A stretch of 64,000 nt of DNA, from the NCBI GenBank assembly GCA_016584305.1, contig JACEEZ010011758.1:82001-146000 (forward strand), written 5' to 3'. The notes under the pieces were generated by a model. That model did not search any database and was not told the origin of the DNA. It saw nothing but the letters and a program-made list of their open reading frames with translations. Made by a program: the position numbers and the translations under genes. This DNA is from Chionoecetes opilio. Lineage: Eukaryota > Arthropoda > Malacostraca > Decapoda > Majidae. Of the stretch, positions 57,725 to 63,474 are shown piece by piece (position 1 is the stretch's first letter; each line of letters starts with the position of its first letter).

Positions 57725-58135
57725 GGGAACGGCGGTAGCGAGCACGCAGGTCTCGTCCATTATTACCAAAAAAAACATTCATGTAAAGGATGTTGTGATC
57801 CATTCACAATATTGTCAGTTTTCTTAATTTATTGATGGCTTTCATTCGATGGTACACTTTCGTTGTTGTGGGTTTGTTTACAAGTTATCAGCTGTGATCG
57901 GGCGAGCCCCAACCGATGTAACGGCGGTAGCGACCTCGCACTTCTCGTCCATTATTACCAAAAATAACATTCATGTGAAGGATATATATTGTGACCCATT
58001 CACGATATTGTCAGTTATCGTAATTTATTGATGGCTTTCATTCGACGGTACACTTTCGTTGTTGCGGGTTTGTTTACAAGTTATCAGCTGTGATCGAGCG
58101 AGCTCCGACCGATGTGACGATGAGTGACCTCCAAG
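57725..58135 (-). repeat. Tandem repeat (~190-bp unit), inverse of 13145-13545
   Basis: Two copies of the unit with 'gggtttgtttacaagtt' and 'ttattgatggctttcattcg'; divergence from the array at 13.1 kb is small. Confidence 0.8.
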
Positions 58136-59457
58136 ATGCCTCGGGAACCCTCGCCCCCTGTAGATAATCCCTATTAGATTTAAGGTAAGCAACAATATGC
58201 CTATGTCATCATTTCTATGCATAACTTATCATTTATATATGTTTTGATATGCATGGGTGTGAATGAGTATAAATGTACGGGTATGCACGGGAGGACCGAT
58301 CGACCGATATCAATTTTTTCCATAGGTTATGTGTTTCAAATAGAGCGAATTCACATAAAACGACCTCGTTTATTGTTTTAAACAATATTGTTTTAAATTT
58401 CTCGTTTTATGTGGAACCCTAGTGTAGTTGGTAGCATCAATTATGAGATTTCGAAGTCACTGTATTTCTCCGTTTCAGTGGACTCCACACCAGACATTGC
58501 CCATACGGACCAGCTCACTATCATCCTCCGCTACGTCAACATGACAGATCACAAGCCTGTCGAGCGTTTCCTCACGTTCATTAGTATCTCTAGTCATACA
58601 GGTCAGAATCTTGCTGATACTCTTCTCCAATACTTGAAGGACCATGACATCGACTTTGACAATTGGCGTGGTCAGACGTATAACAATGCTAGTAATACGT
58701 CGGGCAAGTACAATGGTATATATGCAGCAAATTTTGAAAAACAAGAACAGTTTGGCTGATTACATTCCCTGTGCAGGTAACTCTCTGAACCTATAGTAGA
58801 GGACCCTACCATTGAGCCCGTGACCAATTTCTCCTGATCAAGGTTTGAAGGTGGTTTTTAAATGACTTGAGGATACTGAACAAAATAAGCCCTCATGTCC
58901 CTCGCAAAAGTGCGGGCTAACTCCGCCAGGGGGCAAAATCCAAGATGGCCGCCGTGAAAACTAGATTTGTCATATCTTGACTCATTTAATAGCTATTAAT
59001 ATGTTCTTGGTGTCTAAATGTATGTTTTTTTAAGTCAAGGAGAGCAATAAAGACATCATAGAGTGGATTTGTGGACAAAAAGTCATTGTAATTGATTATT
59101 TTATTAAAAAATGAAGACAAAACATTTCAATATTCATCATTTTCGAGAACCATATCATGCTTATTGGCCACTAATCACATGAAGCTTATTTTCACTGGAT
59201 TATAACTCAAGTTGATGTTATTGAAAAAAGATGTAGCCCAATTCATCTCAAAATGTGTTACAAGAACTCCAAGTAACACGATATGGCTGATACACGCTTT
59301 GAATTTGTTCTATTAGTATATGTATATTGCCGATGTATTCTAGGTGTCAACAAATAGGTTTTTCAGACCAAGGTTTTCAATGCTAATATACATGAATTAA
59401 TTTGTTTAATCAAAATTGAAAACAATTATTGATTTATCCTAACTCATTACATATTTC

Positions 59458-59650
59458 TAATCACAGGCGTCACTATAAAAATCCTGCTTGCGCCATCACG
59501 GGCGAGGACCAACCATCACAGCCCTCAAGTGAACCTCCAGAGCCTACCATCCGAGCCCTGGGTCACCACTGCCTACAGGCGCTATAGGCACAAATGTATA
59601 AAAATAAATAATAATAAAAAAAAATAAAAATAAAAAAAAAAAAAAAAAAA
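59458..59650 (+). mobile_element. SINE family 3 (5'-truncated) in the left TIR of element A
   Basis: Body 'taatcacaggcgtcactata' through poly(A) at ~59620-59650. The right TIR reads 'acatatttcagataaatc' uninterrupted, so the insertion is precise, with TTC on both sides. Confidence 0.9.
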
Positions 59651-59704
59651 TTCAGATAAATCAGGCAAAATCCACAACCTATCATAACTATTTAACTGAC
59701 AATT

Positions 59705-61918
59705 ATGAATATGGATATGGAGTTTGAAAGGATATCAAATTCAGGTACACCAATGGCGAAATACTGGATGTCTTTTCTTGAGATGACTGAGATTCTGATG
59801 ATGAACTTGCATGCCCTAAGAACTCAGAACTGGGAAGAATTCAAAGCATCTCTACGTTTGATGTTGCCCTGGATGCATGTCTATGACAACAGCAAGTATT
59901 GAAGGTGGATGGTGGAGTACTGGCTGGAGCTGAGCAATCTTCCTGAGGAGAGAACAGCCTACATGAGGGATGGTTTGTTTTCCCAGTCAATCACTAGTAA
60001 ACCTTACTCTTGTTTACCTCTTGATCTGTGGATAGAGATGACCATGAACAAAGGATCGAAGATGAAAGCTGGTTGGCTTAAAATCCTCAAAAATGAGATG
60101 TTGCTCACTGATTCAAGAAATGTTAACTCCGTCAACCAAGTCAGATCATCTCTACATACCATGACACAGAGTACCCTGTCAAAACAGCAACACAGTGAAA
60201 ACACAAAAACACGTTTGAAGCTGGATGAGCAGGCAGTACAGGATATTGATAGCTGCATCACTGAATTTTCCTATGACCCATTCAACACAGACGATCCTAA
60301 TCTGAGATCTCTTCAATCTGGTGTTCTGGCTTCTACTGCACTTGTTGATGACTTCGAGTCTGCTCATCACGATGGTGAAGATCTGTTCAGGATATTCTGC
60401 AATGACAGCATGTTGAGTGGCAATATACCATTTTACTTTACAGTGCACAGAAACTAACGACGGAACTTCAGTAATCCACCACCTGTCATAGGTGACAATA
60501 CTGACAAGGTTACCAAATCAGAGGCCATGGCCGGAGAACAAGACAATGGTGTCCATCATAGCACTAGCAGAAGCACACGACGACAAGTTTAACCTCATTA
60601 ACGTGATGGAATACCGAGTGACAGATGAATGTTTGCCCATATACAACGTTAACAGGACAATGAGAAAGACCCAAAAGTCCAAATTGGTGGATAAATATAT
60701 ATGGAGACCTTGGATTCCAAGGAGTACATTGCTATAGTTGATATGGGATTCATATGGCGTCTGTCAACCCCATCATTTGAGGACCGTGAACAATCAGATG
60801 GTATATACTAGCTTCACATGGCGGGATTATGCTTCCAAGATGTTGTCCATAATAATGTCCAGACACAAAAATGTTTCAAAGATTGTGTTGGTGAATGACC
60901 GCTATGACTTGCCATTTACCATCAAAGACAGTGAACGAAATCTTCGCTCTAGTAATATTGAAGGCTCTAAGAACATCTTCATCCGGCCTTCAGACAAATT
61001 TCCCTCAGCTAGAGCTTTCCAGGATTTGTTGCACAATCCAGCTAATAAACAACGCTTGCAGTCATTTCTCCAAGATGAGATCCGTCTAAGGTGCTGTGAA
61101 CATCCCAATGTCCAGTATGTATATTCAGTGGGTCCAAAGTGTTGGAATTTATCCACAGGAGACAGAATTGGCAATTTTGAATGTGAACACATCGAAGCAG
61201 ACACGATTCTCTTCTTTATAAATTATATTCCCAAATCAGAAGATCAGGCATTGATACTGATGTTGTCATTGATGCTGAAGATACAGACGTTCTAGTTTTG
61301 TCTGCATATGTTGCCCATACAATAGATGGAGTGTTAACAGTCAAGAGGAAGAACATCATAGATTGTAAAAAACTATGCTCCAAAGAGGTAGCAGAGATTA
61401 TAGTTCAATTACATATTCACAGTGGATCAGACACCACAACTGCCTTTTATGGCCACGGGAAAGCATCAATTTTTACCAAGGGAATCTCAGATGATGCACG
61501 TGCTCTGCTGTGCTGTTTTGGCAAGTCATTGCCGGTCACACAGTCTGTTCTGAATGACATGGCAATATTCACCTTAAGATACATCTATGACAAGGTGAGC
61601 AAATCTATGGGTGAAGCAAGGGCACGAAAATGGAACCAGATGAAGAGAAAATCAACACTGAGACTTCCACCAGATAGAGATTCACATGACCTGAAGGTAG
61701 CAAGAGGAAATTATCAAACACACATGCTTCTCAATTATCATAAGGTAGATCCTTCTCCGTCTCCACTTTCACATGGATGGGCTGTTGAGAATGGCTTGTG
61801 TAAGCCAGTGCGATACACAAGACCAGCACTACCAATGCATTTGAAGGATGTCGTTCAACTTCAAGACCTAACACCAGGAGATACTGATTCAGGAGAGTGA
61901 TTCATATGATGAAGACGA
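59705..61918 (+). pseudogene. Element A core protein, PIN/FEN-like nuclease-looking C-terminal region, damaged
   Basis: Pieces in order: 59705-59902 (AKYWMSFLEMTEILMMNLHA), an in-frame TGA, 59909-60457 (RWMVEYWLELSNL; CLPLDLWIEMTMNKGSK), shifted 60492-60737 (NVMEYRVTDECLPIYN), shifted 60738-61295 (FTWRDYASKM; GDRIGNFECEHIEADTILFF), and a shifted frame from ~61246 to 61900 (VIDAEDTDVLVLSAYVA; HIHSGSDTTTAFYGHGK). The acidic motifs EADT, DTDVLVL and GSDTT, with a following GK, resemble the metal-binding centre of PIN/FEN-like nucleases; this is pattern recognition, not a search result. Three frameshifts and one stop make it non-functional. No DDE signature is visible. An acidic tail (~61895-61940) closes the frame. 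Confidence 0.7.
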
Positions 61919-62668
61919 GGATAATGACATTGATGTATAATATTGCCCATTCATGTTATCCATAATTGTCAGTTAAATAGTTATGATAGGCTGTGGATTT
62001 TGCCTGATTTATCTGAAATATGTAATGAGTTAGGATAAATCAATAATTGTTTTCAATTTTGATTAAACAAATTAATTCATGTATATTAACATTGAAAACC
62101 TTGGTCTGAAAAACCTATTTGTTGACACCTAGAATACATGAATACATCGGCAATATACACATACTAATAGAACAAATTCAAATTGTGTATCAGCCATATC
62201 GTGTTACTTGGAGTTCTTGTAACACATTTTGAGATGAATTGGGCTACATCTTTTTTCAGTAACATCAACTTGAGTTATAATCCAGTGAAAATAAGCTTCA
62301 TGTGATTAGTGGCCAATAAGCATGATACGCTTCTCGAAAATGATGAATATTGAAATGTTTTGTCTTCATTTTTTAATAAAATAATCAATTACAATGACTT
62401 TTTGTCCACAAATCCACTCTATGATGTCTTTATTGCTCTCCTTAACTTAAAAAAACATACATTGAGACACCAAGAACATATTAATAGCTATTAAATGAGT
62501 CAAGATATGACAAATCTAGTTTTCACGGCGGCCATCTTGGATTTTGCCCCCTGGCGGAGTTAGCCCGCACTTTTACGAGGGACATGAGGGCTTATTTTGT
62601 TCAGTATCCTCAAGTCATTTAAAAACCACCTTCAAACCTTGATCAGGAGAAATTGGTCACGGGCTCAA

Positions 62669-62732
62669 TCAGAACAGGGAACAGGGAACAGGGAGACACG
62701 AAATGAGGTGGATTCTGTGGTAGAAAAGATGG
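62669..62732 (+). repeat. Templated insert in the right TIR of element A
   Basis: 64 bases ('cagaacagggaacaggg ... gtagaaaagatggg') repeat 63016-63068 of the neighbouring hAT gene. They interrupt the TIR between 'ctcaat' and 'gggtcctc', where the left TIR has only four bases. The 'aacaggg' word is triplicated. Confidence 0.85.
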
Positions 62733-63474
62733 GTCCTCAATTACTACAAGTTCTACTGTAGTTGGTCAGTACGCGGTGGATTGTTGCATTGAAGCAGTTT
62801 CATTTTTTAGGTTTTTGCAGGGCCTGTATGCGTTCCTTGTGGCATCCACGCACCGTTGGGGTGTCCTGCAGACCCTTTTGGAACAGCAACCTGGGTGCCT
62901 TATTTCAAAACACCCATCGGATACCCGGTGGTCTGCCCGAGCTGATGCCCCTGAAGCTCTGTTCCGCGGTTACCGCCAGTTCCAGAGTGCTCTCAAAGAG
63001 ATCTCTGTAGATGAAAATCAGAACAGGGAGACACGAAATGAGGTGGATTCTGTGGTAGAAAAGATGGGCACCATAGAAGTTGCCCTGATGTGTGAACTTT
63101 GGAATTATATTTTGCAGCGTGCGCTTCAACTGCTGCAGCAAGTTGTTGCAAAGTGCCACCATAGAATGAACACCGACTATTGGTCTGCTTAAGAGTTTTA
63201 ATGAGTTTTTACATGCGCGCCGAGAAAAGTTTGATTTCTATGAGCAACAAGCATGTGATCGCTGCGGCAACAGCACTTACAAATCCGAAAGTCGGCGAAT
63301 TCCCAAGCATAAGAAGCATGTCAATGATGGAAATGCTACTGATGCCGCTGAAGGGATGACATGACGGGCCAACAAAAATTCAAAGGTAATACATTTTATG
63401 TCATGATTGATCAACTGCGAAGTGCATTGCAGAAACGCATAGATGTGGTGGTTCATCCTAGGCTTGGAAAGGTA

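Follow-up and report, generated by a model that had tools for sequence, protein, structure and literature searches.

The 64,000-nucleotide stretch of the Chionoecetes opilio genome analysed here and called the window (assembly GCA_016584305.1, contig JACEEZ010011758.1, positions 82,001 to 146,000 of the forward strand) carries at positions 58794-62758 a transposable element lodged in a hAT-like open reading frame (ORF). An earlier note, made from the letters of the window, had described this element as a transposon with long terminal inverted repeats (TIRs) encoding a PIN/FEN-like protein instead of a DDE transposase. We show below that copies with more of the element preserved have a DDE-type core within that same polypeptide, and the window element is probably a dead copy of an AcademX-type cut-and-paste DNA transposon that has undergone an internal deletion and become partly palindromic. 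The features of the locus are as follows, residues being numbered according to the homologue P0030.

58397..58793, + strand: hAT-like target left of the insertion (DUF4371, E=9.1e-7, 29.4 bits, under the cut-off of 32.1)
58794-62758: whole element, inside the hAT-like target
58794..59457, + strand: left arm, outer part, 664 nt; the usual family TIR, starting TAGTAGAGGACCC, takes up its first ~346 nt, and the remainder is the mirrored right sub-terminal region
59458..59650, no strand: 193-bp insertion with an A-rich tail, splitting the left arm
59651..59711, + strand: left arm, inner 61 nt
59712..59720, no strand: internal-deletion junction, ~2.45 kb gone relative to the full-length copies J25 and J26
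59723..61888, + strand: transposase-nuclease gene remnant with stops and frame changes, corresponding to residues ~779-1505
60035..60037, + strand: candidate catalytic Glu codon of the DDE triad (E883), within DLWIEMTMNKGS
61194..61205, + strand: EADT motif, FEN-like active site (E1272/D1274)
61280..61300, + strand: DTDVLVL motif, FEN-like active site (D1299/D1301)
61424..61438, + strand: GSDTT motif, FEN-like active site (D1350)
61957..62669, - strand: right arm, inverted
62670..62730, no strand: foreign stretch in the right tip, with 48 nt 100% identical to hAT positions 63021-63068
62731..62758, - strand: remains of the right tip, namely GGGTCCTC, a ~14-nt insertion and CTACT
62759..63192, + strand: hAT-like target right of the insertion

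Arms, coding remnant and insertion site

The arms of the element are inverted copies of each other over three segments, 58811-59340/62140-62669 (530 nt, 98% identity), 59333-59457/62015-62139 (125 nt, 99%) and 59651-59711/61957-62017 (61 nt, 97%), yielding a total arm length of ~725 nt. When the genome was searched with the left arm, 40 matches were scored out of 989 candidates, of which two were the window's own arms; since the other 38 lie elsewhere at 95-97% identity, the arms are not due to chance. The insertion that splits the left arm is probably a later interspersed repeat resembling a short interspersed element (SINE), because a related piece (90% match over ~133 nt) adjoins another copy, L020 (positions 3-134). 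At the other end, the hAT sequence identical to the 48-nt repeat lies 335 bp away, and this repeat resembles a templated insertion in aberrant repair.

In agreement with the earlier note, the enclosed frame is single and broken, and the EADT, DTDVLVL and GSDTT motifs are present, spread over two frames. The absence of a DDE pattern was only partly confirmed: the first and second Asp are indeed missing, but the Glu motif is in place. The window copy runs from its arm straight to residue ~779, and the 5' region, the Cys/His N-terminus and the first two DDE Asp were lost at the junction. As the residues before ~779 are deleted, D468/D471 and D636 are absent whereas E883 and the nine FEN-type residues are kept; it is the deletion of much of the DDE core that makes this copy look transposase-free.

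Joining the flanks without the element leaves the hAT frame uninterrupted at the site (...NSLNLVGQYAVDCC...), as had been proposed. All four hAT copies fetched at this site (of 27 genomic matches) were unoccupied and read NSLNLVGQ; in one the frame stays open throughout, and the other three have nearby stops or frame breaks. The insertion is flanked by CTA on the left and (G)TA on the right, so that TA is the only dinucleotide seen twice. Since the four unoccupied copies carry the plain site, this TA is read as the probable remnant of a CTA duplication. The element copy L009 appears to be the same insertion, carried in another copy of the hAT target, as both the flank and the right-end damage agree. 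Because L009 seems to share the right-tip damage, the hAT sequence and its passenger were probably duplicated after that damage. Left of the hAT remnant, positions 57800-58119 contain two 124-nt direct repeats, 93% identical and 196 bp apart from start to start.

Full-length copies and target-site duplications

The neighbourhoods of 20 left-arm matches were fetched from the 1.94-Gb genome and three were extended. Two full-length copies, J25 and J26, measure 5786 and 5770 bp from tip to tip and have more than 2 kb of extra coding sequence between the 5' tip region and the part represented in the window. Their 5' tip region has ~346 nt in common with the 3' tip, and the full-length TIR starts TAGTAGAG. 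The extra coding part begins after a splice-acceptor-like stretch with MSRPPQKSRKRRS and comprises Cys/His clusters, which may bind zinc, followed by DNDDF and GDQPVY motifs. Full-length copies thus encode one protein of ~1.5 thousand amino acids, with a Cys/His N-terminus, a central domain and a FEN-like domain.

The long TIRs of the earlier note are present in the window, but the family TIR is usually ~346 bp. The arms reach 0.73 kb because, past ~346 nt, the left arm repeats the right sub-terminal region in inverted orientation. Among the examined copies this arrangement is found in L023, L028 and the insertion common to the window and L009, whereas the remaining both-ended copies have shared ends of ~300-346 nt. 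A length of 0.73 kb is therefore rejected as the family state. The mirrored arms may be the product of aberrant repair after excision. Both-ended copies other than the full-length and mirrored ones are 2.3-4.1 kb long and rearranged differently.

Target-site duplications were tallied over 21 copies, 11 of which have both tips; the window copy and L009, which do not have two recognisable tips, were not counted, and L015 was excluded for its diverged left tip, though both its flanks look like TAA. Of these 11, 9 carry a duplication of exactly 3 bp (CTA, TTA, TAA, TAT, TTA, CTA, TTA, GGA and TAT); L019 had a 2-bp match and J26 none. No duplication of 4 bp or more was observed among the 11, lengths up to 9 being tested. 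The TA of the earlier note is accordingly visible at the window site but is not the duplication of the family.

The same genome holds a second subfamily, represented by a single copy (L036:663-6394), whose protein is 43-51% identical to P0030. Its TIRs are 419 nt long at 95% identity and its tip resembles that of the main family, given as TAGTAGAG / TAGTAGAGTC; no clear 3-bp duplication was seen at this copy.

Homologues and modelled domains

In the protein collection, the protein piece encoded at 61187-61897 had 29 relatives, and the one with the highest score is 67% identical over 90%; the sources named were Chionoecetes opilio (two) and Petrolisthes manimaculis (one). With the J26 read-through as query (X at the breaks), 38 proteins were matched, and a profile search found at least 116, overlapping in part with these 38. 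The sources named among the homologues include cnidarians (Paramuricea, Dendronephthya), a mollusc (Nucella), arthropods (Nymphon, crabs) and fish (Dissostichus and others), and many homologues are single uninterrupted frames of ~1.5 thousand amino acids, in several animal phyla.

An alignment of 18 long proteins was made of P0030, 14 proteins 42-64% identical to it and three at 23%. The nuclease and the DDE core occur together in all 18, the DDE-type acidic residues D468/D471 (candidates for the first catalytic Asp), D636 and E883 are invariant, and so is the FEN-type series D, D, K, R, E, D, D, D, D, in that order. The DDE-type set was also invariant in a 28-row alignment (A3), and part of the FEN-type set was nearly invariant in a 33-row alignment that includes fragments (A2). 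The nine residues of the element follow the order of D34, D86, K93, R100, E158, E160, D179, D181 and D233 in FEN1.

The AlphaFold model of the domain that survives in the window is a FEN/Exo1/XRN-type nuclease with a mean predicted local distance difference test (pLDDT) score of 88.7; of the 50 structural neighbours listed, 49 are titled as nucleases of the Exo1, FEN, XRN or T5 type and one is a chain from the excision-repair pre-incision complex. The PIN/FEN-like character assigned by the earlier note is thus upheld: the FEN/XPG (PIN-like) fold is found in the model, and the seven acidic residues with Lys and Arg are found by order and invariance. In the model of the central domain, a DDE core with the order of an RNase H-like fold, an all-helical insertion separates the second Asp from the Glu; its nearest structures are Hermes, RAG1, Transib and ISCth4, with modest scores.

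In the Pfam scan at E<=0.01, DUF6589 was detected in 11 of the 18 aligned proteins and no other family in any. For the FEN part nothing exceeded the curated cut-offs of Pfam and NCBIfam; the sole suggestive match, 5_3_exonuc_N in P0011 (E 0.017), stayed under its cut-off. Against the sequences of solved structures, the window ORF had 0 matches and the A2 and A3 profiles two each, chance-like and headed by a DnaA fragment (E 0.0038 and 0.0022).

The first ~30 residues of P0028, annotated as Chionoecetes opilio HERC2, match the FEN-domain gene, and copy L019 is located on a contig, C17374, equal in length to that of P0028; P0028 is probably a mis-joined gene model. Among P0069-P0073, P0053 and P0150, homologues in a fish are called 'U3 small nucleolar RNA-associated protein 10', whereas a metagenome bin of a bacterium (Sedimenticola) holds two others. 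Both labels seem to be mistakes of annotation or binning, given to the protein of an animal transposon.

Possible mechanism and known systems

By sequence and model, the complete element is ~5.8 kb long, with ~346-bp TIRs and a single protein of ~1.5 thousand amino acids made, from N- to C-terminus, of Cys/His clusters, an RNase H-like DDE core and a FEN/XPG-type 5' nuclease. The DDE core would perform strand transfer in a cut-and-paste reaction with a stagger of 3 bp, and the FEN domain could process 5' ends or flaps arising from excision, insertion or gap repair. Deleted copies such as the window element would rely on enzyme supplied in trans.

The nuclease of the AcademX lineage is of the XPG type. 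This lineage belongs to the Academ superfamily and is said to go back to Kojima (2020). Academ is a DDD/E transposase superfamily (PMC9587614; PMC10294476). Duplications are 3 or 4 bp in AcademX and 9 or 10 bp in AcademH, a difference that seems tied to the encoded nuclease or helicase (PMC10045372). The family of the window element fits the AcademX type by description, a DDD/E core, a nuclease and a 3-bp duplication being common to both. A comparison by description leaves room for another view, in which DDE and FEN parts are combined as proposed while the family belongs to an unnamed DDE superfamily other than Academ. That Pfam knows the core as DUF6589, of unknown function, and that a literature search for DUF6589/PF20231, judged on titles and the start of abstracts, gave nothing relevant speak in its favour. 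Nevertheless we consider it unlikely, given the agreement with the AcademX description (PMC10045372; PMC9587614) and the statement that host-gene annotations are frequent among fungal Academ copies (PMC6416283), which would account for the missing names of the homologues. Because the combination of features agrees with the AcademX description, the unassigned transposon group of the earlier note is probably wrong.

That note had suggested that the core protein could be the mobilising enzyme. Copies that retain the FEN part but lack the first two Asp, in the window and elsewhere (e.g. L010 and L019), could suggest that a PIN/FEN protein alone moves a new kind of transposon. Yet this idea is hardly tenable, and its strong form is refuted: the full-length copies and all the aligned homologues have a DDE-type core, which in substance is the finding that the note had named as refuting it. 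Short fixed duplications, moreover, are typical of DDE strand transfer. A literature search for PIN/FEN transposons, judged in the same way as that for DUF6589, returned nothing relevant. The note's other suggestion, a cargo protein, would make the FEN domain a captured passenger unrelated to movement. Accessory nucleases and helicases do differ among transposon lineages (KolobokD/E/P/H; PMC9587614), but capture is very improbable here because the domain shares one protein with the DDE core throughout the alignment, down to 23% identity, with its putative catalytic residues invariant. These findings remove a candidate group of transposase-free transposons and link DUF6589 to a modelled DDE core that shares its protein with a FEN-type nuclease. 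The invariance of the nuclease site suggests that it is important to these elements, and a role of flap-type nucleases in cut-and-paste transposition becomes directly testable.

Several known systems share part of this organisation. FEN1, Exo1 and XRN 5' nucleases have the fold in common with the element's domain at 9-15% identity, but the latter is fused to a transposase core. Hermes (hAT), RAG1/Transib and ISCth4 possess, as in our model, an RNase H-like core with a helical insertion before the Glu helix; they are 6-11% identical to the element and devoid of a FEN domain. Duplications are 8 bp in hAT and 5 bp in Transib elements. The C/D-x-x-H motif that the hAT/P/MuDR/Kolobok/Dada group has between the second Asp and the Glu was not found, the invariant residues being G662, F664 and H665, which may be a variant of it. 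Tc1/mariner elements duplicate TA, whereas 3 bp are duplicated in 9 of 11 copies here; at the damaged window site only TA is visible. PIF/Harbinger elements duplicate TWA, whereas only 4 of the 9 duplications are TTA or TAA, the others being CTA (twice), TAT (twice) and GGA. AcademH belongs by name to the same superfamily as the element but has a helicase and 9-10 bp duplications (PMC10045372); no helicase appeared in the Pfam scan of the 18 homologues, and no duplication of AcademH length among the 11 both-ended copies, with lengths up to 9 tested. KolobokD/E/P (PMC9587614) and some Dada elements are, like this one, DDE transposons with an added nuclease, which is of the DEDDh, PD-D/ExK, His-Me or DEDDy type and not FEN.

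One further reading, which we offer tentatively and regard as rather unlikely, is that a single polypeptide with two nuclease sites shares out the cleavages, the DDE site cutting and joining the transferred 3' strands and the FEN site cutting the non-transferred 5' strands or flaps. If so, transposition would depend on the FEN domain as one of its enzymes, and the domain would not be an accessory. In Tn7, TnsA and TnsB divide the labour of cleavage, and the element would be a eukaryotic one-protein counterpart of that pair.
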